In this document: piece by piece, positions 4,531-43,180 of the stretch
How the letters are laid out: every line of letters begins with the position of its first letter
How positions within the stretch are numbered: position 1 is the first letter of the stretch
Source: Corynebacterium glucuronolyticum DSM 44120
GTDB taxonomy: Bacteria; Actinomycetota; Actinomycetes; Mycobacteriales; Mycobacteriaceae
Assembly (NCBI RefSeq): GCF_030440595.1
Contig: NZ_CP047452.1
Coordinates: 2,480,001-2,544,000, forward strand
Direction of reading: 5' to 3'
Length of the DNA: 64,000 bases
The notes under the pieces: model-generated
Databases searched by the model: none
The model's input: the letters and a program-made list of their open reading frames with translations, nothing else
Told to the model about the DNA's origin: nothing
Position numbers and translations under genes: made by a program

Positions 4531-5865
4531 ATGAAAGACCTGGAATACCGGCTCCCCCAAACCCGCTCCATCACCACGGATATTCCCGGACCAATAAGCA
4601 CGGAGCTTGATGCTCGCCGCGAAAAGTCCGTGGCACGGGCCCTCCATCCAGGTCTCCCCGGCTACGTTGTTGATGCCGACGGCGGAGTGCTTGTCGACGC
4701 CGACGGAAACTCGTGGATTGACTTTGCCTCCGGCATCGCGGTGACATCCGTCGGCGCCTCCAACAAAGCCGTCACCGAGGCCGTGGCCGAGGCCGCAAAG
4801 CACTTTACCCACACCTGCTTTATGACATCCCCCTACGAGGGATACGTGCAGGTGGCGGAGCTCCTGGCGGAGGTCACCCCCGGCGATCACGAGAAGAAGT
4901 CCGTGCTGCTCAACTCCGGCGCCGAGGCCGTGGAAAACGCCGTGAAGGTGGCACGCGCCTACACCGGCAAGTTCGGCGTGGTCACCTTTGAAAATTGCTA
5001 CCACGGCCGCACCAACCTCACCATGGCGATGACCGCCAAGAACAACCCGTACAAGACGGGGTTCGGACCGTTCGCCTCCGATGTGTTCCGCGTTCCCATG
5101 TCCTACCCGCTGCGTGACGGGCTCTCCGGCAAAGAGGCCGCAGAGCGCACCATTCGGGTCATGGAAAACGAGCTCGGCGCCGAGAACCTCGCGTGCGTGG
5201 TAGTGGAGCCGATCCAGGGCGAAGGCGGATTCATCGTTCCTGCAGAAGGGTTCCTGCCCGCCATTGTGGAGTGGTGCAAGGAAAACAACGTGGTGTTCGT
5301 CGCCGACGAGATTCAAGCCGGATTCTGTCGCACGGGCCAGTGGTTCGCCTGCGAGAAGGAGGGCATAGTGCCCGATCTCATCACCACCGCCAAGGGGATC
5401 GCCGGCGGCCTGCCGCTGTCGGCGGTCACCGGTCGCGCGGAGATCATGGATGCTGCGGTAGTCGGCGGCCTCGGCGGCACCTACGGCGGTAACCCCATCT
5501 CCTGCGCCGCGTCTGTCGCCGCCATCGGCGAAATGAAGCGCCTTAATCTTCCGGCCCGCGCCCAGGAAATGGAGAAGATTATTCGCGAAGAGTTCGAGGC
5601 AATCGCAGGCCTGCCGGAAGTAGCTGAGATCCGCGGGCGCGGCGCCATGGTTGCCGTGGAGTTTTCCACCCGGGACGGCGCACCAGGCACTGCACTGTGC
5701 AAGGCTGTGGCCGCCGCGTGCAAGCAAAACGGCGTGCTCATCCTCACCTGCGGGCTCGACGGCAATGTCATCCGCCTCTTGCCCCCGCTGGTCATGCCCG
5801 AAGATCTTCTCCGCGACGGCCTGCGCGTTCTGGTTGAGGCTGTCAAGAACGAAACCGCCAAATAG
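4531..5865 (+). CDS. gabT: 4-aminobutyrate aminotransferase
   Basis: This 444-residue class III PLP aminotransferase transfers the amino group of GABA to 2-oxoglutarate, giving succinate semialdehyde and glutamate. Diagnostic parts are the LNSGAEAVENAVKVARAYTG cofactor segment, FVADEIQAGFCRTG with the PLP-binding Asp, and ITTAKGIAGGLPLSAV with the Schiff-base lysine at Lys288. I chose the ATG at 4531 because AGAAAGG precedes it by about 10 nt and the protein then has normal family length. An in-frame ATG at 4510 would add seven residues. gabD follows after 21 nt. gabT-gabD together carry GABA into the TCA cycle. Confidence 0.93.
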   Translation: MKDLEYRLPQTRSITTDIPGPISTELDARREKSVARALHPGLPGYVVDADGGVLVDADGNSWIDFASGIAVTSVGASNKAVTEAVAEAAKHFTHTCFMTSPYEGYVQVAELLAEVTPGDHEKKSVLLNSGAEAVENAVKVARAYTGKFGVVTFENCYHGRTNLTMAMTAKNNPYKTGFGPFASDVFRVPMSYPLRDGLSGKEAAERTIRVMENELGAENLACVVVEPIQGEGGFIVPAEGFLPAIVEWCKENNVVFVADEIQAGFCRTGQWFACEKEGIVPDLITTAKGIAGGLPLSAVTGRAEIMDAAVVGGLGGTYGGNPISCAASVAAIGEMKRLNLPARAQEMEKIIREEFEAIAGLPEVAEIRGRGAMVAVEFSTRDGAPGTALCKAVAAACKQNGVLILTCGLDGNVIRLLPPLVMPEDLLRDGLRVLVEAVKNETAK

Positions 5866-5886
5866 AAGCACGAAGGAGGAGACCGA

Positions 5887-7341
5887 ATGCGCCTGCGCGC
5901 CACTATCCCCACCGGGATTCGGATCGGTTACACCGAACGCCCTGCATCTGGCGGAACCGAATTTCCCGTAGTTGATCCGGCCACCGAGGAGGTTGTTGCA
6001 CACGTTGCCAACGCAACCTCCCCCGATTGGAACGAGGCGCTCGACCTCGCCCACGCGGCCGCACCAACGCTTGCTGCCATGCCTGCCAGAGCGCGGTCGC
6101 AAGCCCTGCGGGAAATCTTCGAGGCAGTCAAAGAACGCACGGAGGATTTCGCCACCACCATGACAGTGGAGATGGGCAAACCGCTGGCCGAGGCGCGCGG
6201 TGAGGTGAGCTACGGCAACGAGTACTTCCGCTGGTTTTCTGAGGAAGCCGCCCGCATCAACGGGCGCGTGACCCCCGCACCGGCAGGTGGTGGAACCATC
6301 GCCACCACGAAGCACCCCGTGGGCCCGGTGCTCGCCATCACGCCATGGAACTTCCCGCTGGCCATGGCCACGCGAAAGATCGCTCCCGCCCTTGCCGCCG
6401 GCTGCCCCATTCTGGTTAAGCCTGCGGCGGAGACTCCGCTTACCCTCCTCCTTCTTGGTAAGGTCCTAACCGATGTGCTGCGTCGCCTCGATTTTCCGGA
6501 CGGCACTGTCTCTATTCTCCCCACCACACACGCGGCAGATCTATCAGCCGAACTCATGGCTGACGCCAGGCTGAAAAAGGTCACCTTCACCGGGTCTACC
6601 GCCGTGGGGAAAACCCTGGTGCGGCAATCGGCCGACAACCTGCAGCGCACGTCTATGGAACTCGGTGGGAACGCTCCGTTTGTAGTTGCAGGGGATGCCG
6701 ATCTTGATCTTGTCCTCGAGGCAGCACTTGCCGCCAAGATGCGCAATGGAGGCGAGGCGTGCATCGCCGCCAACAGGTTCTTGGTACACGAGGATCTAGC
6801 AAAGGAATTCACCGAACGCCTCACCGCGCGGATGGGTGAATTTGTTGCCGGGCACGGCCTTGATGATTCCACCACGCTTGGTCCCCTCATTACCGCCGAG
6901 CAGAGGGATCGCGTGGCCACACTTGTCAAGGATGCCGTTTCTGGCGGAGCCACCGTCCTCATCGGTGGTGAAACTCCGACCGGTGCCGGCTACTTCTACC
7001 CGGCGACAGTTCTCACTAACGTTGCACCCACCTCCCGGATCATGCACGAGGAGATATTTGGCCCGGTGGCAACGGTTACCTCCTTTCATAATCTCGACCA
7101 GGCGGTCGCCACCGCCAATGACACCCCCTTTGGGCTCGCAGCCTACGGATTTACTGAGAACATCCACACCGCGAAGTACCTGGCAAGCGCACTCAACGCC
7201 GGAATGGTGGGCATCAATAGGGGTGCCATCTCGGATCCGGCGGCGCCATTTGGTGGCATCAAGCAGTCTGGCTTTGGACGCGAGGGGGGAAGTGAGGGCA
7301 TAGAGGAATACCTGGAAACACGCTACATCGCCCTCCAGTAA
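5887..7341 (+). CDS. gabD: succinate-semialdehyde dehydrogenase [NAD(P)+]
   Basis: The 484-residue aldehyde dehydrogenase has the full family length. Motifs in order are ITPWNFPLAMATRKIAPALA (cofactor-binding core), FTGSTAVGK (nucleotide loop), MELGGNAPF with general base Glu258, and GGEACIAANRF with nucleophile Cys292. It oxidises succinate semialdehyde to succinate. A GGAGGAGACCG sequence gives a strong ribosome site 5-8 nt before the ATG. It is the second gene of the gabT-gabD-regulator unit. With the partial aldehyde dehydrogenase at the window start this is a second semialdehyde dehydrogenase nearby, so the two probably serve different steps or substrates. Confidence 0.93.
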   Translation: MRLRATIPTGIRIGYTERPASGGTEFPVVDPATEEVVAHVANATSPDWNEALDLAHAAAPTLAAMPARARSQALREIFEAVKERTEDFATTMTVEMGKPLAEARGEVSYGNEYFRWFSEEAARINGRVTPAPAGGGTIATTKHPVGPVLAITPWNFPLAMATRKIAPALAAGCPILVKPAAETPLTLLLLGKVLTDVLRRLDFPDGTVSILPTTHAADLSAELMADARLKKVTFTGSTAVGKTLVRQSADNLQRTSMELGGNAPFVVAGDADLDLVLEAALAAKMRNGGEACIAANRFLVHEDLAKEFTERLTARMGEFVAGHGLDDSTTLGPLITAEQRDRVATLVKDAVSGGATVLIGGETPTGAGYFYPATVLTNVAPTSRIMHEEIFGPVATVTSFHNLDQAVATANDTPFGLAAYGFTENIHTAKYLASALNAGMVGINRGAISDPAAPFGGIKQSGFGREGGSEGIEEYLETRYIALQ

Positions 7342-7387
7342 TTGCTCGCGAGTATCCTCCGAAGAATAGCCAATAAGGAGGACGACC

Positions 7388-8902
7388 GTGTCGCACTTTC
7401 CCACCCCGTACACGCCGCTGGATCTGTCGTGGCTCATGCGCCAGCCAGATCTTCGCCTCACCCCGGTGGTATCCCGCCCGGTGGAGTTTTGGGGCGTGCA
7501 GGTCTCCGAGATCGCGCACCCGGAGACCTTCATTGAAAACGGAGCCGTCGTGCTCACGGTGGGGCTCGCGTTCCGTGGCGACCTCCCCGGTTTCATTGAG
7601 GCTGTGCGCGCTATGGCCCGCTCCGGCGCCGTGGCCATCGGTGTGGGTGTGGGCTACGCGTTCGACCACATTCCGGACGAGCTCATTAAGGCCACGGCCG
7701 ACCTTCCCCTCGCGCTGTTTGAGGTCCCGCGCGAGGTGTCCTTTGCCTCCATCCTCGCCGCGGTGCAAGCCGAGCGCACCTCCCGCGCGGCTTCCCGCGA
7801 GCGGAAGCTTCTCCGCACTCTCATCAGGCTTAACGACGCCGCCAATGCGGGCGATACGGTCGCCTTGGTCCGTGGGGTTGCTCAATCATTAGACGTGACG
7901 GCAGCCCTCATTGATAGCGATAACCGCATCATCGCCCACCACGGCGACGATACCCTTATCACCGCAGCCGTGTCGCTTTATTCGGGAACGAGCAAGGCGG
8001 TATCCGCCGACGGCGTAAACTATCTCTTTCACAAGATGCGCACCCGGGGAACGGTTCACCGCGCCATGGCCATCGCCTCCCGCGCAGAATTTGGGTTCAT
8101 CGATCGCGTGGTTATTAGGCACAGCGCGGGGCTCGCCGATCTCTTATTGGGGCGCCCGCAGGAGCTCGCGGGGCAGCGCGCCGCCGTCAACGAAGCCGCC
8201 ATCCTTGCCCACCTCGGTCGCAGTGGCGACGAATCTGCACTGCATGACCTGTTCCGTGTGGTAGTGGACTCGCGGGGGCTCACGCGTCCGGCGGTGGTGT
8301 GCACCCGGACGAGGAAGACGATGCGAGCCATCCGCCAGGCGCTGCTGCAGCGCGCGTGGGAGGATGGCCGGACGCTTTTTGTGGCGGAAGTGGCACCCAA
8401 CACCACCCTGTACCTCGTGCGTGGATCCACGAGTGAGGCGGAGATTGTGAAGAATTTTCAAAAGTGGCACGACCAAGTAAGACTCGGAATAGGAGCACCG
8501 ATTCCTTTGGGTGCGCTCACGGGGCACAGCGTGGACAAGCTCATCGCCGAGGCACGCACCAACCCGGCCGGCTATGGCAAGCCGGGCGGACACGCACCGC
8601 AATGGCTTTTCTCCCCCACCGTCACCGCCGCCACGCAGGGGCGATTCATGGAGGTGGAGGAGAAACTAGCGAACTCCGCCAAGGCCGACGAGCTCAAGGA
8701 AGCGGTGGCGGCCTTTCTTTTTGAAAACGGTAACCTCGGCGCCGCCGCCGACCGCCTCGGCATTCACCGACACACCATGCGCGCCCGGATCGGCGAGGCG
8801 GAGGGGCTTTTGTCTACCGACCTATCGCACCCACTCACCCGCGCCGAGCTCACCCTCGTTTTTGCCACCCGCATGCGGGAATTTAACCCACCACTCCAGT
8901 AA
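7388..8902 (+). CDS. PucR-family transcriptional regulator (GabR-like)
   Basis: The 504-residue protein has the two hallmarks of the PucR family. The N-terminal domain (about 1-130) includes FIENGAVVLTVGLAFRGD, and a C-terminal helix-turn-helix (about 430-495) reads NGNLGAAADRLGIHRHTMRARI. The start is a GTG at 7388 with AAGGAGG about 6 nt upstream, 46 nt after gabD. PucR-type proteins activate catabolic operons in response to pathway metabolites, and in C. glutamicum the gab operon is controlled by such a regulator. It very likely controls gabTD and perhaps the divergent permease unit. Its 3' end overlaps the convergent permease by 20 bases. Confidence 0.9.
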   Translation: MSHFPTPYTPLDLSWLMRQPDLRLTPVVSRPVEFWGVQVSEIAHPETFIENGAVVLTVGLAFRGDLPGFIEAVRAMARSGAVAIGVGVGYAFDHIPDELIKATADLPLALFEVPREVSFASILAAVQAERTSRAASRERKLLRTLIRLNDAANAGDTVALVRGVAQSLDVTAALIDSDNRIIAHHGDDTLITAAVSLYSGTSKAVSADGVNYLFHKMRTRGTVHRAMAIASRAEFGFIDRVVIRHSAGLADLLLGRPQELAGQRAAVNEAAILAHLGRSGDESALHDLFRVVVDSRGLTRPAVVCTRTRKTMRAIRQALLQRAWEDGRTLFVAEVAPNTTLYLVRGSTSEAEIVKNFQKWHDQVRLGIGAPIPLGALTGHSVDKLIAEARTNPAGYGKPGGHAPQWLFSPTVTAATQGRFMEVEEKLANSAKADELKEAVAAFLFENGNLGAAADRLGIHRHTMRARIGEAEGLLSTDLSHPLTRAELTLVFATRMREFNPPLQ

Positions 8903-23198: not shown

Positions 23199-26100
23199 TT
23201 ACTTCTCGTCGGCAGCTGCAGGGGTGGTCGTGGTGGTCGTGGTGTCCTCAGTGGAGGAACCTTCAACCTTCACGTCCTTACCGCTGGAGAGGTTGGAGCT
23301 CAGCTGATCGCCACCGGGGGCACACTGCGTAGCAGCGACACCAGCGAGGAGGCCGATAGCAGCCAGGAAGCCAGCGCCCAGGACAGCGTTCTGCAGGTGC
23401 GGAGCAACGTTGTTCTTGAAAGCAACAGCAAGCTCGGGGTTGTAGATACCCAGAGTCTTCTGGATGCCCGTGTTGATGTCCTCAACCTGCTTGCCGAAGC
23501 CATCAGCGATGCCACGAACCTCAGGAACGTTTCCTACCAGGCCGAGAGCGACCGGGAGCAGGAGCAGCAGCGGCACAGCGGAAGCAGCCGAAGCGCCAAC
23601 GCACACTCCGAGGTGCTTGTCATCCATACCAACGGTGATCTTTACGGTGTCAATAACCTTGCCGTTCTTGTCCTTGACGGTAACCGTAATGGTGTCACCG
23701 TACTTGGCGTTACCGGGCTTGACCTTCAGATCGCCAGTGTTGGGATCGATCTCAGCGGTTGCGCCATTACCGGCGGGTTCAACCTCGGTCGTGTAACCGG
23801 CGTTGGGGTCGTACTTGCCACCCGTGTTCGGGATGGTGACTTCGCCACCCTCCTTAACATTGCTGTCTTCCCACTTCGGGGTATCCTTGCTGATCGGGCC
23901 GGGGTTGACATCGCCCTGGTCGGTGCCGTCGGCGGGGTTCTTGCCCTGCTTGACCTCGTCGCCATCGTTCACGCCGTCACCATCGGTGTCGGGGTTGGTC
24001 GGGTCGGTGCCGTTCTTCAGCTCGTCACCGTCGTTGATGCCGTCACCATCGGTGTCAGCCTTGTTCGGATCGGTGTAGAACGGGCCGGAGATAACCTTGG
24101 TGTTGCCGTCCTTGTCCTTGATGGTGATGGACGGAACCTGCGGGTTACCGTTGATTTCCTGGCCATCGGTCAGGCCATCGTTATCGGTGTCGGCCTTGTT
24201 CGGGTTGGTTGCCTTGTTGCCAAAGTGAACGTTCTTGGAACCGTCAACCTCGTCGCCGTCCTTGATACCGTCGCCATCGGTGTCGGCCTTGTTCGGATCG
24301 GTGGGCTCGTTGTTGAACGGGTTCTTTGCGCCGCTCTCTTCGTCCTTGTCGGTGATGCCGTCCTTGTCGGAATCCTTGCCAACGTGAACAACAACCGGAA
24401 CCTCATCCTTGGAGCCATCCGGGTAGGTCACAACGACGGTGGCATCCTTGTCGCCCTCGGTCGTGGTGTCAACCGGCTTCTTGAACTCGGTCTTGGTGCC
24501 CTCGGGAAGCTCGTTAAGGTTAGCGATGGAGTCCTCAGCCTTCGGGGTGTCACCCTTGTTGACGGTCTGATCCTTGCCCTGAGGATCGTACTTGGAAGCG
24601 TCCGTCTCCTTGTCGGAAATGGTGTACTTGAAGGTCTGCTCGACCGGCTTGCCGTCCTTATCGGTGATCGGGTTGCCGTCTTTGTCCACAGCCTTCAGCG
24701 TGACATCGTAGTTGCCAGCCTTGGTCGGGGTGCCCTCGATGGTATAAACGGGCTTGCCGTTCTCATCCTTGGACTCGACGAGCTTGAGGCCCTCAGGCAG
24801 ACCCTCAGCAACGACCTTGCCGCCCTCAGGGAGGTTGGTGGTGTTGACCTTGACCGGGTCGATGGCCTTGTCAACGGTGCCGTTCTGGTCCGCTACATCG
24901 GCAATCCTCGGGGTGGAGGTGACGATGAAGGAGTCAGAAGCAATGTCGTTTGCGCCGTTGTTCACGACAGCGTAGAAGAAGTCGCCGTCCTTAGCATCGG
25001 CAGGAACCTCGAACTTGGAGCAGTCCTTGTCACCATCGGTGAGGTTGGAGATGGAAGTGATCTTGCAGGACTTCAGAACCTTGCCACTGCCGTCGCGCCA
25101 CTCCATGGTGGCACCGGTGATGGGAAGCTCACCGTTGAGCTTGGCCTCAGCGACATCGCCAGGAGCAGCGGGCTTATCCGTCGCGTCGAAGTTGGTGATG
25201 TCCAGCTTGACCTGGCTGTAAGGAACGCCAGCGAAGTTGACATTGTACAGACGACTCATGCGGGAGTTGTTAGAAGCAGACCAGGCGTTATTAATAGCGC
25301 TAGCCGGAGCAGGACGCCACTGGTTAACCTGATCGTACGGCTGGAAGACCGGCTGCAGGTACGTGGAGTACGAGGGAACAACGTTGCCCTGCGGATCTTC
25401 AACCCACATGTACAGGTACTTCTGGAAGTTGTCAGCTGCTCCGAGGGTCTTCTCGTGAGTGAACATCTCGTCGGAGAAGCGAAGCTTGTAGTGGCCGTCC
25501 TTATCGGTCTTGCCATAGACGGTGCCGGCGATGGCATCCGGATTCTCAGCAAGGAACTTCTTGGTGGCTGCGGCCTGCTTTTCAGCCGGGAGGGAGCGGA
25601 CGTCGCGCTCGTACTTCTGGATGGCATCCGGGGTCAACGCGGAAGCGAAGACAGTGTAACCCTGAGCCGCCGGGTTCGCAGTGCTCGTTGCACCGGTGAA
25701 CAGCTGACGCTCGTTACCGGTCTCCAGCCACATGCTACCGGAAACAGTACGGGTCATGTAACCGGGAACATTCGCGTTGTAATCGCCGTGTGCCGGATCC
25801 TCGACGAGCTTGTCGCCCTTAGCCTTCATGTAGTTGACGCCGTCGGCGTTGGGAACCTCAAACATCCACACGCCGGTCTTAGCCATGTTGCCGTTGGTCT
25901 CAACAGCACCTGGGAACTCGCCGATGCCGCCACCGTTGCCACGATCGTAGGCGAACGGAATCATGCCAGGAGCAGTGCGCAACGGAACGAGGGTGTTACC
26001 GGTCTGAGGATTCTGGGTCGGCTCGACCCAAATGCGGTAGCGCTGCTTTCCTTGAGTCTTAAAACGGTGCGTCTTGCCAGCGGCATCTACCCACCGGGGA

Positions 26101-26636
26101 AGAGCGAACGCGTAAGTACCCTTGCCACCGACGGTACCGGCCTTTCCATCGCTTTCCTCAGCAATGGTATCGGAGGTCTTGGTGGAGTACACGGGAGAAA
26201 CAGCTCCATCGCTATCCATCCACTGCATGTAAACCGGGGTGCCAGCTGGAATGGAATCGAATCCACCCCAGTTCGCCGTCAACAGGGCGCCACCCTTAGG
26301 GGTGAGAATTTGTGCACGGCCGGAAACTACGTCCTTACCGGCGGTCTGAGCGCTGGTGAGATCAACAGCCTTAGCGATCTGGCCAGATGCAATCGCATCG
26401 ACATTGTAGGAGCCATCGGCCTGCAGCTTCGGCTGCGTCAGGCCCGGCTTGTCTACGCTGCCGTAGAAGTGCTTCTTGTCAGGGTTTGCATTGGTAGCCT
26501 CTTCTGCAGCTGCAGTCACAGCGAACTGCGGCGCAACAACGGGCTGGATAGTCGGCGCAACGAGCGCCAGGGAAAGAGCAGCAGCGGCGAGCGAAACGCC
26601 ACGGCGGATCTTTCCGTTCTTCATGTGGATAGCCAT
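23199..26636 (-). CDS. giant surface-anchored repeat protein (Rib/YPDG and thrombospondin type 3 repeats), paralogue 1
   Basis: The start is ATG 26636 (MAIHMKNGKIRRG) with GAGAGGA 8 nt upstream, giving 1145 residues. Order of parts: signal peptide (about 1-45, hydrophobic AAAALSLALVAPTIQPVVA); a long N-terminal domain shared with the two paralogues; a putative-Ig domain ending TKAGNYDVTLKAVD; a Rib/alpha-like domain with TYPDGSKDEVPVVV; and Ca-binding thrombospondin type 3 repeats (DTDGDGIKDGDE and variants, about 760-900). A C-terminal module has two hydrophobic helices starting at Cys1012 and ending at Cys1105, then a Thr-rich tail. There is no LPxTG motif. It is probably an adhesin or coat protein held by the helical hairpin. 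Confidence 0.85.
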   Translation of the reverse strand: MAIHMKNGKIRRGVSLAAAALSLALVAPTIQPVVAPQFAVTAAAEEATNANPDKKHFYGSVDKPGLTQPKLQADGSYNVDAIASGQIAKAVDLTSAQTAGKDVVSGRAQILTPKGGALLTANWGGFDSIPAGTPVYMQWMDSDGAVSPVYSTKTSDTIAEESDGKAGTVGGKGTYAFALPRWVDAAGKTHRFKTQGKQRYRIWVEPTQNPQTGNTLVPLRTAPGMIPFAYDRGNGGGIGEFPGAVETNGNMAKTGVWMFEVPNADGVNYMKAKGDKLVEDPAHGDYNANVPGYMTRTVSGSMWLETGNERQLFTGATSTANPAAQGYTVFASALTPDAIQKYERDVRSLPAEKQAAATKKFLAENPDAIAGTVYGKTDKDGHYKLRFSDEMFTHEKTLGAADNFQKYLYMWVEDPQGNVVPSYSTYLQPVFQPYDQVNQWRPAPASAINNAWSASNNSRMSRLYNVNFAGVPYSQVKLDITNFDATDKPAAPGDVAEAKLNGELPITGATMEWRDGSGKVLKSCKITSISNLTDGDKDCSKFEVPADAKDGDFFYAVVNNGANDIASDSFIVTSTPRIADVADQNGTVDKAIDPVKVNTTNLPEGGKVVAEGLPEGLKLVESKDENGKPVYTIEGTPTKAGNYDVTLKAVDKDGNPITDKDGKPVEQTFKYTISDKETDASKYDPQGKDQTVNKGDTPKAEDSIANLNELPEGTKTEFKKPVDTTTEGDKDATVVVTYPDGSKDEVPVVVHVGKDSDKDGITDKDEESGAKNPFNNEPTDPNKADTDGDGIKDGDEVDGSKNVHFGNKATNPNKADTDNDGLTDGQEINGNPQVPSITIKDKDGNTKVISGPFYTDPNKADTDGDGINDGDELKNGTDPTNPDTDGDGVNDGDEVKQGKNPADGTDQGDVNPGPISKDTPKWEDSNVKEGGEVTIPNTGGKYDPNAGYTTEVEPAGNGATAEIDPNTGDLKVKPGNAKYGDTITVTVKDKNGKVIDTVKITVGMDDKHLGVCVGASAASAVPLLLLLPVALGLVGNVPEVRGIADGFGKQVEDINTGIQKTLGIYNPELAVAFKNNVAPHLQNAVLGAGFLAAIGLLAGVAATQCAPGGDQLSSNLSSGKDVKVEGSSTEDTTTTTTTPAAADEK

Positions 26637-27127: not shown

Positions 27128-30100
27128 CTACTTACCAGAATTCTCATTCGGCGTAGTTTTCGTCGTATTCGTCATGTCCTTGTCGCTCGACAGGTTGGAG
27201 CTCAACTGATCTCCACCAGGTGCGCACTGCGTTGCAGCAACGCCGACAAGCAGGCCAAGCGATGCGATGAACGCTGCAGCCAGAGCCAGGTTCTGCATGT
27301 GCGGAGCAACGTTCTGCTTAAAGGCGAGAGCGAGCTCCGGGTTGTAAATACCCAGAGTCTTCTGGATACCGGTGTTGATATCCTCAACCTGCTTGGCAAA
27401 CCCGTCGGCGATCTGCTTTACCTGCGGGTTGTTGCCGGCCAGGCTGAGAGCAACCGGGGGCAGGAGCAGCAACGGGATGGCGGAGGCGACGGAAGCACCG
27501 ATGCAGATGCCGAGGTAATCGTCGCACATGCCGATCGTGATCGTGACATCGTCGAGCTTGTTGCCGTCCTTGTCGGTCACCGTCACCTTGATGGTGTCAC
27601 CGTACTTGTATTCCTTTGTGTCCAGGGTGATATCGCCAGTGGGCGGGTCGAAGTAAATCTTGCCGTCCTTGGTAGCGAAGTCCTTAACATCCCCCGCCAA
27701 GCCCGGAACCTTCGTGCCGTTCTTCTCAACGTGGAACTTGGCACCCCCTGGAACCTTTTCACCGACATTCTTGACCGGATCGGACTTACCGCCCTCAGGA
27801 GCCGTGGTGTCATCCCATGCCGGGTTGCCTTCCGCAATCGGGTTCGGATTGATCTTGCCACCGTTGGTGCCATCACCATCGGTGTCAGGGTTGGTCGGAT
27901 CCGTGCCGCTCTTAATTTCATCACCATCGGTGATGCCGTCACCATCGGTGTCGGCATTATTCGGATCGGTGTAGAACGGGCCCTCGATGACCTTTTTGTT
28001 GCCGTCCTTATCAACGTAGGCGATATCCGGAGCCTGCGGGTTACCGTCGATCTTTTCACCATCGGTCAGGCGATCCTTATCGGTATCAGCCTCGTTCGGA
28101 TTGGTCGGCTCGTTGTTGAAGTGATCGTTCTTGGAACCGGAGGTCTCATCAGCGTCGGTGATAGTGTCCTTATCAGTGTCCTTGCCCACGGTGAACGTCA
28201 AGGATGGGTTATCAAGCCTTGTTCGGGTCCGTGAAGAACGGGCCCGCGACAACCTTGACGTTGCCGTCCTTATCAGTCACAGTGAGGGAGGGAACCTGGG
28301 CGTTGCCGGCCAGCTCCTCACCGTCGGTAAGCCCATCACCGTCAGTGTCAGCCTTCGCAGGGTCGGTGGGCTTGTTACCAAAGTGGGTGTTGAGCGCACC
28401 GGAAGCCTCGTCGGCGTCGGTGACACCATCGTTGTCAGAGTCCGTGCCCACGGTGAACTTCAGCGGTGCGGTATCAGTGGACTTGTCCGGGTAGGTGACG
28501 GTGACCGGAATCTCCACCGTCGTGTTGTTCGCAACATCCGGCCCCGGGGTCACGGTGACCACACCGGTGACGGGGTCAACCTCGACGGTAAAACCGGCCG
28601 GAACCTTGGACTGATCGGTGGAGTACACGGTTCCCTCCGGAAGCTCCTCGGCACCGTTCGGGGAAACCTCAACCGACTGACCGGCCTTGCCGGATGCCGG
28701 GGCGTACCCGGGCGCGTAGGCAGCGGCATCCTTGTCAGCAACGGTAACCGTGGCCGGAACCCTGTCGGTGGAACCATCAGGGTAGGTCACCACGACGGTG
28801 GCTTCTTTGGCACCAGGAGTGGAGGTATCCACATCGGTGGCGTAGGCGACCGCAGTGCCCTCGGGCAGGAACGCAGCATCCTTGAGGGACTTCGCTGCAT
28901 CCGGGGTCTCGCCCACGCGGACGGTCTGCGGGGCGGATTCCGGCGCGTGCCTATTCGCCTCGGTCTCCCCTACCTTGGTGTCCATCGCGGGAAGCTCGCT
29001 CTTGATGTCCTGCGGTGCAACCGCGAAGTCGATGGCAGCCCAGGCCTTGCGCTCATCGCGCCACTGCGCCTCGAGGGACGAGGTGCGCCACGAGCCGATG
29101 ACCACGTTGTTCGGCGCAACGAAAATCGCCTTAACAAAGTTGGAACAGGCAGGAACGATGTTGCCATCCAGGTCCGTCACCCACATGTACACGCGCTCCA
29201 TGTTCGGGCGCTGGCCGTTGACTTCATCAAAGCGGAGGGTGTAGAAGCCATCCGCGTTGACGGTGGCAACCTTCGTCTGCTGCAGGTACTCGGGGTGATC
29301 CTTAAGGATCTTCTGCGTGGCAGCCACCTGAGTTTCCTTCGGCTCGGATTCCATGAGCTGCGACAGGCGGGTGTAGCCCTCGCTGTTGAGGGTGGTAGCC
29401 CACACCTTGTAGCCGTTGGCGAGCACCTCGCCGCCCTTGGTCACGCCGTCATAGCGAGGGCCGTTGGCGGCAGACAGGTTCTGGTAACCCGCACCGTTTT
29501 CCAACCACACGCGGCCGGCGATGAAATCGTTCTCGCCGGTCGTTTGCGCCTGGGAGCGGTTGAACGCCTTGCCTGCGCTCTTGGACACGTTCTTGGCCAC
29601 GAACTTATCGTGCGGGGCCTCGTACATGAACAGGGCCACCTTCTGCATGGACACGCCCGCGTACTGGAACGAGCCGAGGAGCTGGTCGCCCGACTTCACT
29701 CACTCTCCCACGGTGAGGCCGCCAGCCTGACGCATCGGGATCATGGTGTTACCCGTAGCCGGGTTGGTGTAGTTATCAATCCACAGGCGGTACCACTGGC
29801 CGCGGTGGGCACGGTATTCGTGCTTATCGCCGAGTTTGTCCACCCAGCTCAGTCGCCCGCCGTCGGGGTTATTGAAGGAGAAGGTACCCTTGCCGCCGTT
29901 GCCAGCAACAACGTCCTTGAGGTCATGGGTCTTAGCCTTGAACCACGGCGACTCGGAGAGCTCTCCGTTGGCATCCTTCTCCCGCAGCTGCAGGTACACG
30001 GTCTGGCCTGTGGCCGGGATGTTGTCGTTATCGTAGGTGGCGCCCGGGTTGCCGTTCGGGTGTGCCTCGTAGACGTGGCCATTGATTTGGCCCGCGTACT

Positions 30101-30347
30101 TGAGCCCGTAGCCAAACTGGGCGGCGCTGGTAATCTTGCCGCTGGCGATGCCGTCTGCCTCGATAGCCTCGTCCTTGATCTTCACGGCCTCGTCGTAGGT
30201 GAGGGTAGTTTCAGCGTTGGCGACGCCGGCAAACTGGGGTGCCACGAGGGGCTGAATGGTGGGGGCTACGACGGCGAGGGAAAATGCGGCCGCAGCGATG
30301 GAGATGCCACGGCGAATACGCCCGTGACAGGTACGGATGGTAGCCAT
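27128..30347 (-). pseudogene. giant surface repeat protein, paralogue 2, interrupted by a stop codon and a frameshift
   Basis: The start MATIRTCHGRIRRG at ATG 30347 and the signal peptide match paralogue 1. The frame is closed by TGA at 29702-29700 (TVGE-stop-VKSGDQ) but continues in the same frame without loss of homology; a TGG to TGA change would explain it. A second lesion near 28215 ends the frame at FFTDPNKA, and the thrombospondin type 3 repeats resume in another frame with PSLTFTVGKDTDKD. That suggests a deletion between repeat units. The C-terminal two-helix module is intact (ICIGASVASAIPLLLL to ATQCAPGG). Fragments of about 215, 495 and 370 codons remain. Assembly error in the repeats is a possible alternative to true decay. 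Confidence 0.8.
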
Positions 30348-30993
30348 TAGTCTGGTTCTTTCAAATGACTTATCTGTGGAGTTTTTCAAACCCTAAGAGC
30401 CCGTTAAGACAACCCGCGATTCACGTGCGTTTTACCAGCCCTCTTGATCTGTATGTACTTGCTTCTAAGGTTTTCTTACCCTTTTGCCTGTCTTCCACTC
30501 AATAAATTATTTACTTTTCCACACAATAGCGCTCCAGCGGCGACACACTGGACCGCATCATCCAAGGTCACGCCTAAAAAATGAACAGCAACCCAGATCC
30601 CCATCCCCCTCTCAGAATTCCTCAGTATCAGCCAGCCTACTACCCCACATCGAGGGAGTCGCACACACTCGGCACTAATTGAATCCCGATATTTATGAGC
30701 TCCTCCCCCACTTCACAACGAGCGACCACGCCCCACAAAACAAGGAGAATACGAGCGCTGCCTGCACACGGAGTCCAAACCCGAACACGCACCGCAGCAA
30801 GACTGATAGCCACTCACGAAGCGGACCGCTGCACGCCAGGACATGAACGTCACCCCCCCCAACAGATACCAAGATGGCCCCACGCGTTGCCACGTGAGGC
30901 CATCCTTGACGGTAGTCTCTAGCTTCTTTGCAGAAGATCTAGCGACTGTTCTCCCAAGGAAGGGAGTCTATTTCTCCTCCAAAGAGGAAGTTT
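30348..30993. other. intergenic region between surface proteins 2 and 3
   Basis: About 645 bases without a supportable gene; short open frames here have poor codon use and no ribosome site. It holds the promoter of paralogue 2 near its left end, a run of eight C at 30853-30860, and a long imperfect hairpin at 30871-30906 that may terminate paralogue 3. Confidence 0.5.
30871..30906 (-). terminator. possible terminator hairpin downstream of surface protein 3
   Basis: Arms of about 14 nt (AAGATGGCCCCACG / CGTGAGGCCATCCTT, with mismatches) lie about 90 nt past the gene stop. No clear T run follows on the minus strand, so its role is uncertain. Confidence 0.4.
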
Positions 30994-33874
30994 TTACTTG
31001 TTCGCGGTGGAGCCGTTGGAGCTGCCACCGTTCGGGGTGCACTGCGTTGCCGCGACACCAGCCAGCAGGCCGATGGAGGCTATGAAGCCGGCCGCCAGAG
31101 CAAGGTTCTGCAGGTGCGGAGCAACCTGAACCTTGAACTGATGTGCAAGAGCCGGGTTGTAAATACCCAGAGTCTTCTGAATACCAGTGTTGATATCCTC
31201 GAGCGTCTTACCGAAGCCAGCCGTCAGCTCCTTCACCTGAGGATTGTCCATGGCAAGACCAAGAGCAATCGGGGTCAGAAGCAACAACGGGATAGCAGAA
31301 GCAGCCGAAGCACCAACGCAGACCTGAGCCTGGTCTTCAGTGAGACCCGGGATAGAGCCCTCAGCGGTACCCTTATCCACAACTGTGATGGGCAGTTCGC
31401 CGATCTTGTTGCCACCCTTGTCGGTGATCTCAACAACGTACTTGCCCGGCTTGGTTCCATCCGGAACCGTCACCGTCACCTTGCCATTTTTATCAATGAC
31501 AACCTTGGCACCATCAACCGCCTTACCGTTGCTATCAACAACCTTGCCAGTCAGACCGTCGACTGGGCCGGTAATTTTTCCATCAATGGTTTTACCTTGC
31601 CCGTCGTTCGGGACCGTGTCGTTGGTACCCGGAACAACCGCCGGAGTAGAAGCATCAGTGACCTTCACATCAATCGGATCACCAACATTCTTACCGTCCT
31701 TATCCTTCACCTGAACCTTGTAACCAGCACCAGGCTTCGTACCCTCAGGCACCGACACAGTGATCTCACCAGTCTTAGGATCAACAGTCACCGTGGCACC
31801 CTCAACAGGTTTGCCATCCTTATCGGTCACCGTGCCAGACATGCCATCAGTCGGATTCTTCACCGTGTCATCCAACTTCTTACCGGTCCCATCGTTTGGA
31901 ACCTCATCCACAGCAGTACCCGGAACAACCGACGGAGCAGGCGTGGTAGAAGCATCAGTGACCTTCACATCAATCGGATCACCAACATTCTTACCGTCCT
32001 TATCCTTCACCTGAACCTTGTAACCAGCACCAGGCTTCGTACCCTCAGGCACCGACACAGTGATCTCACCAGTCTTAGGATCAACAGTCACCGTGGCACC
32101 CTCAACAGGTTTGCCATCCTTATCGGTCACCGTGCCAGACATGCCATCAGTCGGATTCTTCACCGTGTCATCCAACTTCTTACCGGTCCCATCGTTTGGA
32201 ACCTCATCCACAGCAGTACCCGGAACAACCCTCGGATTTTCTACACGGAACTGATCAACGGCTTCGAAGTTCGCGGATCCCTCTTTTTCGGTGGTCCGGT
32301 AAATTCGAGCTTCCACGATCGTATTGTCCGGGGTTCCCTCTGGAACTGTGAAAGTGTGATCCTCGAGGTTTCCGTAACGATTGGTTGTCCCCTGTACCTT
32401 GTCTACCAGCTTACCGTCGACATACCACTCAATGCGGTACGGCATTTCAGACTTAAACGAGGTTGTTTTCGCGGTTACCTTAGTACCAGCCGGAGCGGGC
32501 TTATCAGTGGTGTTGTAGTCCAGGATGTCGAACTTGGGGAAGCCGTTATTCACGGCAAACAACACGTTGATTGGGTTGGAACGTCCAGCGGTCCCAATCG
32601 TAGCCATCGCACCGGGAGAAGCGATGTCACTGAAGTAGGCGCCACCCATGGTCCGCATGTTGGCACCGTTTTCTGACGTCGATGTGCTTCCATCCGAAAC
32701 AGTAAGCGCCGGGTACACGTACATATAGTCCGTGTTGACGTGCTTCTTACCCTTTGTAACCAAGTCATCGCTTCCGGCGATGAATACACCATCGCTGGGG
32801 CTTTTAGCTAGTTCATGGGTATCGTTGAAAATTCCCTTGAACTGGAGCTTGTAATTACCGTCCTTGTCACTCGTGGTCCATACGGTCTCGGCAATAGCAG
32901 GCTTGCCAGCATTGGCAGGATCAGCATCCCAGGCCTCGATGGCGCGCTTTTGCTCAGCAACAAGCTCATCATACTTGAAGCCCTTATTGGCTTCCTTCCA
33001 CTTATCCAGCTGTGTTTTCAGCTCATCGCGAAGGTACGAACCAACAATTTTCTCATTAGGAAGCGCAACATCGGTACCCTTGAATGTGGTTACACCACCG
33101 CTGGTAGCGATACCGATTTCATTCTCGCGGAAGATACGACCACTAGTATTGCCGTAGGTTTGAACGTCCGTGGACTTGACCCACTGATCCTCCGGCTGAG
33201 TCAGCCAGCTCTGCGGGCGTTCCTGTAAAGCAATGTTATATGGGCCAGCATAGCGTGCGGCTAACCCCTTCCAAGTAGCTTTCTGGCGATAGGCCGCACC
33301 AGTCCATTGGCCGAGGAATTCGGCAAAGCCCAGTTGGTACTTCTCAGTATCGTAATCTTCAATCCATACTCGGAGGTACTGGCCAGCTGTCGCTTCCCAG
33401 TTGTGCTCCTGCCCCAATTCATCGGTCCACACAGGCAAGTGGATCGCCCAGGAACCATCCGGTTTCACCGTTGCGGCGTATACCGGAGAAATACGGCCAT
33501 TACCGTCCTTAACCGGGGCGTAGTCCTTCCACTGCGCAAAAACAACTTTGCCCTCCAGCGGAACGTCATATGCGTCTAGGCCAGAAGGCCAGCCAGTAAC
33601 GTCAATGTAGGCGTTACCATTTACCGACTCGTAAGCACCAGCTTTTTCCGCATCGGAAATGTAGTATTCAGTACCCTGAGAACTGACCTGCTTAGGCGTT
33701 TTAACGCCTGGATCAAACTTTGTGGGCAGCGCGGTTTCAGCTTGCGCGACCACACCGGTAGAGATCGGACCCGCCGGCTGGATCGCAGGTGCAACGAGGG
33801 CTAGAGAAAGAGCAGCCGCCGCGATGCTAATTCCGCGACGGACCCCCCCCCCGTTGGTTTCGGATTGCAGTCAT
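30994..33874 (-). CDS. giant surface-anchored repeat protein, paralogue 3, out of frame at a poly-G tract (probable phase-variable OFF state)
   Basis: ATG 33874 has AAAGGA 8 nt upstream. It reads MTAIRNQR, enters a run of ten G (33843-33852) and stops seven codons later. With nine G the frame continues RGGVRRGISIAAAALSLALV, matching the paralogues' signal peptides in sequence and length (14 residues to RRG), for 959 residues in all. The long open frame itself (33753-30994) is undamaged. It comprises the shared N-terminal domain, a region ending in a VEARIYRTTEKEG strand, two identical ~100-residue Rib/Ig-like repeats and a third diverged one, then the C-terminal two-helix module (VCVGASAASAIPLLLL to ATQCTPNGG). 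It lacks the thrombospondin repeats of its paralogues. A homopolymer sequencing error is the main alternative. Confidence 0.8.
31646..31930. repeat. perfect 285-bp direct repeat, copy A, in surface protein 3
   Basis: It is identical base for base to 31946-32230, with a 300-bp period. It encodes most of one Rib/Ig-like domain (GTVTDKDGKPVEGATVTVDP and ITVSVPEGTKPGAGYKVQVK). Identity at all codon positions implies recent duplication or gene conversion. Confidence 0.93.
31946..32230. repeat. perfect 285-bp direct repeat, copy B, in surface protein 3
   Basis: Identical to 31646-31930. Recombination between copies would add or remove exactly 100 residues without shifting the frame. Confidence 0.93.
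33843..33852 (-). repeat. poly-G (10) tract in signal-peptide codons of surface protein 3
   Basis: Ten consecutive C on the plus strand (G on the coding strand) begin at the eighth codon. One G fewer, or two more, brings the start codon into frame with the gene. This is the classic layout of a slipped-strand phase-variation switch. Confidence 0.85.
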
Positions 33875-34199
33875 AAGAACTGTTCCTTTCGAAGAAATTG
33901 AAGGTGAAAGCCTTTATTACGAATTTGCCAGTTAGCGCTAGTGACTAGAACGCAGCTAATCACCAGTGCTACCTCACCGTTCGTAACCATCGCCCAGTTT
34001 AAAGAATTTTCGGAGGATTGTCCACCTTTTAACAGGTTTCTTTAACCTCTTACTAAATATTAAGGTACACTTAGGTTTCTTTTTACTCCTATTTGCGCAC
34101 GTAGTGTAATTATTTAACGGGTTTACTGTGTAGACACGTATACATTTTTTGGGGGGTTTGCGGCGAGTCAGGTTCCTATTGAGCTGTTGAAGTATGTCA
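33875..34199 (-). promoter_or_regulatory. AT-rich leader/promoter region of surface protein 3
   Basis: About 325 AT-rich bases lie upstream of the gene. AAAGAAACCT occurs twice on the minus strand (34073-34082 and 34034-34043), 39 bp apart, which suggests a regulator site. No gene is present. Confidence 0.45.
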
Positions 34200-41479: not shown

Positions 41480-43033
41480 ATGACTAACACACAAGCTGCC
41501 ACACGGGAGACGTACCAAGGTACTGACAAGGCTCTCGTCGGCATCGTCCTGGGAGTGATGACATTCTGGCTGTTCGCCCAGTCCACCCTCAACGTCGGCC
41601 CGCTCATGGCCAAAGACGTGGGAATCCCCATGCACATCATGAACGTGGCGATCTCCGCATCCGGACTCTTCTCCGGCATGTGCATCGTCGTCGCCGGTGG
41701 TTTCGCCGACCGGTGGGGCCGCAAGCGCGTTGCCATGATCGGTAACCTGATCAACATCGTCGGCTCCCTGCTCGTCGCCACCGCCTTCGGGCCGTTCGGC
41801 ACGACAATGATGATCGGCGGCCGCATCTTCCAGGGCATTGCCGCAGCATCCATCATGCCCTCCACCATGGCCCTCGTCCAGACGTACTGGCGCGGCCGCG
41901 ACAGGCAGCGCGCCCTGTCCATGTGGTCCATCGGCTCCTGGGGCGGCGGCGGCATCTGCGCCGTCTTCGGTGGAGTACTCGCATCCTCCGCACTCGGCTG
42001 GCGCTCTATCTTCTTCCTCTGCGCCGCCGTCTCCGTCGCATCCATCCTCCTCATGCGCGAAATGCCCGAAGCCAAGGCCAACGTCAAGACCTCCGGCTTC
42101 GATCTCAACGGCATCCTCAGCCTGATGATCACGATCGTCGCCCTCCAGCTCATCATCACGCAGGGCGCCTCCTTCGGCTGGCTGTCCCCGACCGTCATCG
42201 GCCTGTTCGTCACCTTCATCGCCGCCTTCTGGTTCTTCGTCCGGATGGAGACCTCCAACGACAGCGCCTTCGTGGACTTCCGCCTGTTTCGCAACAAGAC
42301 GTTCTCCGCCACCTGCGTGGTCAACGCCATCATGAACGCCACCAGCGGCATCCTCGCCGCGTTCCTCTGGGTCATGCAGGACGGTGCGAGCTACTCCGCC
42401 GGCCAAGCCGGCCTCATCACCCTCGGGTACGCCATCTTCGTTGTCGCGTTCATCCGCGTCGGTGAAAAGATGATGCAGCGCTACAACGTCCGCACCCCGA
42501 TGCTCCTCGGCTGCTCCATCGTCTTCGTGTCCATCATCATGCTCATGTTCACCAACGTCATGACCGGCACCTACGTCATCATCGCAGCGGTCGCCTTCAG
42601 CCTCTACGGCCTCGGCCTCGGCCTCTTCGCCACTCCGGTCACCGACGCCGCCCTTTGCGGCCTGCCGGAAGACCAGTACGGTTCCGGTGCCGGCATCTTC
42701 AAGATGGCTTCTTCCCTCGGCGCGGGCCTCGGCGCAGCCATCGCCGCCGCCACCTACACCGCGCTGCGGGACACCGGCTCCGCCCTGCCGACGTACATCC
42801 TCGACTTCGTCGGCCGCCAGGACAACATCACGATCCGCGAGGCAGGCTTCATGGCCCTCGGCACGAACGCCGTCATGTGCGCCATCGCCATCACCCTCAT
42901 CCTCGTGTTCATCCCGAAGGTCACCCAGACCTCCGAAACCCTTGATAACACCGAGGATCTCGACGCCCACCGTCCCTGCAAGGACTGCCCCGAGGGAGTC
43001 GCGGTTTTTGCCGATGACGAGCTCGCAGCTTAG
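41480..43033 (+). CDS. MFS transporter (EmrB/QacA-like drug:H+ antiporter type)
   Basis: The 517-residue membrane protein has 12-14 helices. Its motif A in loop 2-3 reads GGFADRWGRKRVAMIG, and GRIFQGIAAASIMPSTMALV is motif C-like. These are typical of the major facilitator DHA2 family. A GAGGCGG ribosome site precedes ATG 41480. The C-terminal tail is soluble and has two Cys (PCKDCPEG). The reading frame ends DDELAA at a stop formed by the first unit of a 12-bp tandem repeat. Substrates may be drugs or metabolites. No regulator is adjacent. Confidence 0.88.
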   Translation: MTNTQAATRETYQGTDKALVGIVLGVMTFWLFAQSTLNVGPLMAKDVGIPMHIMNVAISASGLFSGMCIVVAGGFADRWGRKRVAMIGNLINIVGSLLVATAFGPFGTTMMIGGRIFQGIAAASIMPSTMALVQTYWRGRDRQRALSMWSIGSWGGGGICAVFGGVLASSALGWRSIFFLCAAVSVASILLMREMPEAKANVKTSGFDLNGILSLMITIVALQLIITQGASFGWLSPTVIGLFVTFIAAFWFFVRMETSNDSAFVDFRLFRNKTFSATCVVNAIMNATSGILAAFLWVMQDGASYSAGQAGLITLGYAIFVVAFIRVGEKMMQRYNVRTPMLLGCSIVFVSIIMLMFTNVMTGTYVIIAAVAFSLYGLGLGLFATPVTDAALCGLPEDQYGSGAGIFKMASSLGAGLGAAIAAATYTALRDTGSALPTYILDFVGRQDNITIREAGFMALGTNAVMCAIAITLILVFIPKVTQTSETLDNTEDLDAHRPCKDCPEGVAVFADDELAA

Positions 43034-43139
43034 CTCGCAGCTTAGCTCGCAGCTTAGCTCGCAGCTTAGCTCGCAGCTTAGCTCGCAGCTTAGCTCGCAG
43101 CTTAGCTCGCAGCTTAGCTCGCAGCTTAGCTCGCAGCTT
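43020..43139. repeat. ten tandem copies of a 12-bp repeat overlapping the MFS stop codon
   Basis: The unit AGCTCGCAGCTT is repeated perfectly ten times, then a partial copy runs into a hairpin (CAGCTTAGC / GCTAAGCTG, 43134-43162). The unit contains internal palindromes. In the MFS frame each unit reads L-A-A-stop, so copy number does not alter the protein. Confidence 0.93.
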
Positions 43140-43180
43140 AGCTCGCTTCGCTCGCTAAGCTGTTAAGGAAACCTACGCGA

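Follow-up and report, generated by a model that had tools for sequence, protein, structure and literature searches.

We describe a homopolymer of ten G (G10) in the signal-peptide codons of a surface-protein gene, here called copy A, on the minus strand of a 64,000-nucleotide stretch of the Corynebacterium glucuronolyticum DSM 44120 genome (contig NZ_CP047452.1, positions 2,480,001 to 2,544,000; henceforth the window), and we propose, at a probability of roughly two in three, that the tract is a contingency switch of a Rib/YPDG-type surface protein that is OFF as sequenced. A reading made earlier from the sequence alone (the sequence-only reading) had likewise suggested a phase-variable tract that is currently OFF, and this is the interpretation best supported by the analysis; specifically, i) a diverged homologue shares the G10; ii) the pair of genes bears the mark of purifying selection; iii) G tracts of differing length recur in the flanks of other members of the family; and iv) the genome has no match to MutS or MutL.

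The tract, its reading frames and its gene

The principal features of copy A are as follows.

33843..33852, minus strand: G10 homopolymer in signal-peptide codons, n-region (sequence reading and run counts)
33827..33874, minus strand: frame from ATG 33874, 15 residues and then a stop (translation)
33884..33888, minus strand: AAGGA, probable ribosome-binding site, 9 nt before ATG 33874 (by eye)
33781..33840, minus strand: signal-peptide RRG motif and hydrophobic core (translation and comparison with homologues)
30994..33870, minus strand: copy A, surface-protein gene with YPDG/long-Rib domains, whose long frame is open and intact past the tract (translation and profile search)
31646..32230, minus strand (from copy A): tandem repeat within copy A, period 300 bp, 2.0 copies, 100% match (repeat search)
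31027..31323, minus strand: C-terminal region; two hydrophobic segments, LPXTG absent (by eye)
30853..30860, minus strand: G8 run about 130 nt past the copy A stop, beside a terminator-like hairpin at 30871-30906 (run count)

The G10 lies in codons 8-11 of the frame that opens at ATG 33874, and the reading frame breaks there. Translation bears out the outline of the sequence-only reading: eight codons lead from ATG 33874, with AAGGA upstream, into the ten G and on to the early stop; the downstream frame is undamaged, with 958 codons open from stop to stop (33870 to 30994); and its arithmetic, by which nine G would join the two frames, is correct. The first ATG, GTG, or TTG in the long frame is GTG 33753, downstream of the hydrophobic core. 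An alternative start in the long frame was considered and rejected: the sole candidate is a CTG that follows an in-frame stop, and the homologue described below has no ATG, GTG, TTG, or CTG there. A scan for a promoter of copy A's own gave 2 promoter-like sites against 2.0 expected, which is chance level.

As in contingency loci, the run is so placed that a change in its length alters the reading frame. We propose that the G10 would act as a slipped-strand (simple-sequence) contingency switch in signal-peptide codons: replication slippage would alter the number of G; some tract lengths would join the ATG to the 950-codon frame (ON); and other lengths, the sequenced one included, would halt translation after 15 codons (OFF), in which state no protein would be made or exported because translation ends so early.

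Its domains mark copy A as a surface protein of the Rib/YPDG type, about 950 residues long. It matches YPDG_rpt (NCBIfam) at 45.3 bits (cut-off 40) and RibLong (Pfam) at 30.7 bits (cut-off 27), and a signal peptide is followed by Rib-type repeats, as in Rib/alpha-like proteins. The classical Rib models match a paralogue in the window (copy C, below) and none of them matches copy A, and by eye the translated sequence contains no LPXTG sortase anchor; because two hydrophobic C-terminal segments stand in place of that anchor, we call the protein Rib/YPDG-containing rather than a classical alpha-like protein. Searched by sequence against solved structures, it has a single weak match, to the surface-protein domain 6s5w. 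The product may be an adhesin or surface antigen. It is not the "giant" protein that the sequence-only reading had made of it, as open frames of this family reach 3,690. Two of the eight G/C runs of at least 8 in the whole genome, the G10 and the G8 at 30853-30860, flank copy A alone.

The shared tract and the Corynebacterium family

When the N-terminal 330 residues were searched against 242 genomes of the genus, 68 matched at E 0.01, and the closest relative found was a metagenome-assembled genome (MAG) labelled Corynebacterium glucuronolyticum SUG507 (G089), whose core proteins are 95-97% identical to those of the present genome (ackA, rplI). The MAG homologue is 69% identical to copy A over the aligned N-terminal part and 79% over residues 787-948, and it carries a G10 at the same codons, likewise out of frame, with 15 residues and then a stop. 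The sequence-only reading had held the tract to be specific to copy A, a claim that this homologue overturns; it had also proposed comparison with homologues in related genomes as a check, and that comparison yielded the shared tract. The MAG homologue occupies a different locus, between genes that by eye we take to be dnaB and rplI, and the MAG has an array of its own (L067) beside the same kinase gene that adjoins the array of copy A, the first copy of which is intact and has an interrupted G5. A scan of genome contigs for further copies of the locus found the MAG locus only, and a scan of viral contigs for relatives of the locus found none.

Long homopolymers are prone to sequencing error, and an error of sequencing or assembly could hide a gene that is truly in frame. 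The same proneness is stated in PMC11287997. A separate assembly of another lineage has the same length at the same codons, which argues against this explanation, and we consider it very improbable.

Chance was rejected as the origin of the run. The composition of the window alone would allow it (4 overlapping 8-G matches against 5.6 expected from shuffles, hence no excess), but the only G10 of this genome coincides with the only G10 of the MAG genome. The whole genome (2,866,769 bp) contains 13 overlapping 8-G matches, which amount to 8 G/C runs of at least 8; four runs reach at least 9, and the single run of 10 is the copy A tract. Scaling the window expectation to the genome would give about 250 such matches, so long G runs are scarce elsewhere in it; a tract retained over evolutionary time where such runs are otherwise scarce, being the sole G10 in each of two genomes, is what a contingency locus would be expected to show.

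We then have the evidence of the family at large. The survey comprised 104 distinct family starts from 51 genomes, each with 450 nt upstream and 300 nt downstream; it took most, not all, of the matches beginning near query residue 1, leaving out those that missed the first 12 query residues, those with E >0.01, and duplicates by the first 150 nt. An RRG-like motif is present in 95 of the 104 starts. Coding-strand G runs of at least 8 occur at 13 of them (C runs of at least 8 occur twice), and copy A and the MAG homologue are the only two with such a run in the start codons, within the signal peptide. The other 11 runs (G8-G14) lie in the 5′ flank, 154-367 nt ahead of the RRG codon, at these positions in other Corynebacterium genomes:

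L195 3043, 8432, 12561, 19034; L197 16618; L199 18304; L201 10766: coding-strand G8-G14 in the 5′ flanks of Rib/YPDG-type genes
L206 1724; L207 8285; L208 9730; L209 1010: the same, continued

In a five-gene array (G178), all four runs of at least 8 in 35 kb precede four of the five genes. At the loci examined closely (G136 excluded), the flank tracts fall outside the gene's stop-to-stop frame; the one exception is G098, whose tract is within that frame yet upstream of the likely start. Homologous flank tracts in three genomes have lengths of 9, 9, and 10, and a second set, less firmly aligned, has lengths of 8, 12, and 10. The surveyed 76.6 kb contain 9 runs of at least 10, where the same genomes would predict 0.23; with every background run assigned to intergenic DNA, assumed to make up 12%, the 5′ flanks still hold 7 such runs against 1.19 expected (P = 2.4e-4, or 7e-6 without one outlier genome), although these seven are not fully independent because they come from five genomes. 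A G10 is in itself common in the genus, at least one being present in 184 of the 242 genomes.

These lengths bear on a different explanation, in which the gene is fixed out of frame and some full-length protein arises through slippage of transcription on the G run or through recoding at the ribosome. The two known sequences do share length and phase, as a programmed site would, and purifying selection on the pair (see below) would also follow; against this, homologous 5′-flank tracts vary in length between species, the start codons around the tract (CTG after an in-frame stop in copy A, none in the MAG) speak the same way, and in bacteria the best-documented cases of transcriptional slippage are on A/T runs. 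We think such a bypass improbable.

Returning to a length-variable switch, we suggest tentatively, at odds slightly short of even, that G-tract switches act genus-wide on a single family of Rib/YPDG surface proteins encoded in tandem arrays, mostly through rheostat or promoter tracts (8-14 G) in the 5′ flank, and that the C. glucuronolyticum group would have a strict ON/OFF version in signal-peptide codons that predates the split of its two lineages, in cells whose slippage errors no MutSL would correct. A search for Rib in Gardnerella gave no match.

Other long runs of the same genome include three candidates of this kind. A G8 at genome positions 1,735,245-1,735,252 (L162 1246-1253) coincides with a frame break inside an LGFP-repeat protein gene, with three LGFP stretches ahead of the run and half a repeat beyond, and is a candidate second OFF switch; LGFP matches in the MAG are short and at the level of the repeat only. 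A C8 at 2,631,332-2,631,339 (L163 1333) lies in the 17-nt spacer of TTGACA/AATATT before a signal-peptide gene, and a C9 at 508,058-508,066 (L141 1059) follows TTGACA, by eye, 64 nt before another signal-peptide gene; both are candidate promoter-type switches that do not rise above chance in the promoter scan. No homologue of the C8-tract protein was found in the MAG, and for the C9-tract protein no MAG homologue exceeds 37% identity. Of the remaining runs, a G9 at 1,963,675 is in frame in a 128-residue open reading frame, and the C9 at 1,653,316, the G8 at 2,757,542, and the G8 past copy A are intergenic or without clear role.

Selection, decay and mismatch repair

Copy A heads a tandem array on the minus strand, followed by copy B, a remnant, and copy C, and the array adjoins the genes for acetate kinase and phosphotransacetylase.

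28212..30347, minus strand: copy B, broken by TGA at 29700-29702, frame end 28212 (translation)
27128..28252, minus strand: remnant of a family member: the C-terminal part, read in another frame (translation and search)
23199..26636, minus strand: copy C, a paralogue that is intact, carries Rib and TSP3 repeats, and lacks a G run at the start (translation and profile search)

Copy B is broken in both genomes (in the MAG at L067 about 5700-8480) by different lesions, and copy C is intact in both. The exact ATG-to-RRG spacing that the sequence-only reading had seen in both paralogues is shared by copy B, with 11 residues before RRG, but not by copy C, which has 10. Elsewhere in the window, a perfect 12-bp tandem repeat (AGCTCGCAGCTT; 43020-43146, 10.6 copies) might serve as a variable-number tandem repeat for strain typing.

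In three separately read pieces of the copy A/MAG pair (179, 390, and 162 codons), the ratio of nonsynonymous to synonymous divergence (dN/dS) is about 0.10, 0.13, and 0.15, the lowest among the array genes compared; dS is 2.0, 1.9, and 0.95, and identity at four-fold sites is 36%, 33%, and 47%, respectively. Core genes of the two genomes have a dS of 0.47 (ackA) and 0.21 (rplI); the G10 genes therefore diverged earlier than the core genes or evolve much faster. The low ratios suggest that the frame was kept by selection while the tract was present.

We wish to stress, however, that several observations weigh against a working switch. First, low dN/dS fails to separate live from dead genes here, because the pieces of broken copy B give 0.16-0.40 and intact copy C gives about 0.5 (dN 0.311, dS 0.615); as proof of a live gene it is weakened accordingly, and what a low ratio records is past selection, with which a recent loss in each lineage would be compatible. 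Second, the MAG homologue has three short tandem duplications of 19, 8, and 15 bp (L066 about 3720, 2515, and 2330), two of which (the 19-bp and the 8-bp) break the frame, and to judge from these two further breaks it may be decaying. Third, the two known G10 sequences do not differ in length and are both in the OFF phase; for the tract itself, the evidence of conservation consists of three four-fold sites and the run length; and a phase-variable tract is inferred from one assembled sequence per lineage. Fourth, the eleven 5′-flank tracts are candidates for a role in expression, the promoter-like site at the C8 is one found against 0.7 in shuffles, which is chance level, and the promoter scan called no site in the C9 region at 508,058.

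Much of this would suit a recent pseudogene, in which a slip-prone run drifted out of frame, perhaps in culture, and the gene was lost as copy B was; copy B is broken in both genomes with dN/dS <0.5, so that a low ratio is compatible with loss, and the two additional breaks of the MAG homologue point the same way. Yet copy A keeps its 958 open codons, no array gene compared has a lower dN/dS, two lineages carry this run at identical codons and out of frame, and G tracts recur across the family. We regard loss of the gene as unlikely, and retain the contingency switch as the preferred interpretation.

The complement of repair genes is consistent with the little slippage repair to be expected at a contingency locus. 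NucS is present in the genome (a NucS_C match over cut-off), and the mutS1 and mutL models gave no match there; as controls, the mutS1 model matched in 11 of 14 known genomes and the mutL model in all 14, C. glutamicum included, 11 of them over cut-off. According to PMC8228993, NucS-based repair leaves short indels uncorrected, and polymerase proofreading may remove most short indels. Slippage at the G10 that escapes proofreading would thus persist and flip the frame, because NucS repair leaves such indels in place. We infer that the tract would change length at a useful frequency in a population, with clonal switching as the outcome.

Comparison with known systems

In Opa-type contingency loci of Neisseria, a repeat within the coding sequence determines the frame in which a surface protein is translated, as we propose for copy A; Opa differs in its Gram-negative host, its five-base repeat, and its well-studied switching. 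Opa is also described in PMC11287997. The type of device is already known; what is new, within the literature searched, is its occurrence in this host, its placement in the signal peptide, and its presence in more than one lineage. Among the matches listed in that search, judged from titles and the beginnings of abstracts, there was no report of homopolymer phase variation in Corynebacterium; the sequence-only reading had remarked that it is rarely described in corynebacteria.

Closer parallels come from other actinobacteria. In Cutibacterium (Propionibacterium) acnes, tract length in PPA2127 (a dermatan-sulphate adhesin) and PPA1880 (a putative adhesin) differs by strain and leads to a frameshift or a change of spacer (PMC3224659); those are different proteins (with PT repeats), and length variation from strain to strain is documented there and proposed here. 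In 90 genomes of P. acnes, 54 polymorphic tracts were counted, 96% of them G/C, some causing frameshifts and others lying upstream of genes; the lengths mostly follow clades and were read as slow accumulation, which is a caution for the copy A tract (PMC4746626). In Gardnerella, also Actinobacteria, tracts of at least 8 occur either ahead of genes with surface-protein motifs (Rib, GA-module, and others) or within such genes, and one tract varies between colonies by Sanger sequencing (PMC11287997); genus and proteins are other than those described here, where the tract lies in signal-peptide codons and is common to a diverged homologue.

A tract common to two diverged genes offers a ready comparative test. 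If it flips, an isolate from a single colony would misreport the surface proteins made by the population, and Corynebacterium would be added to Cutibacterium and Gardnerella among the actinobacteria whose surface proteins are associated with G tracts.
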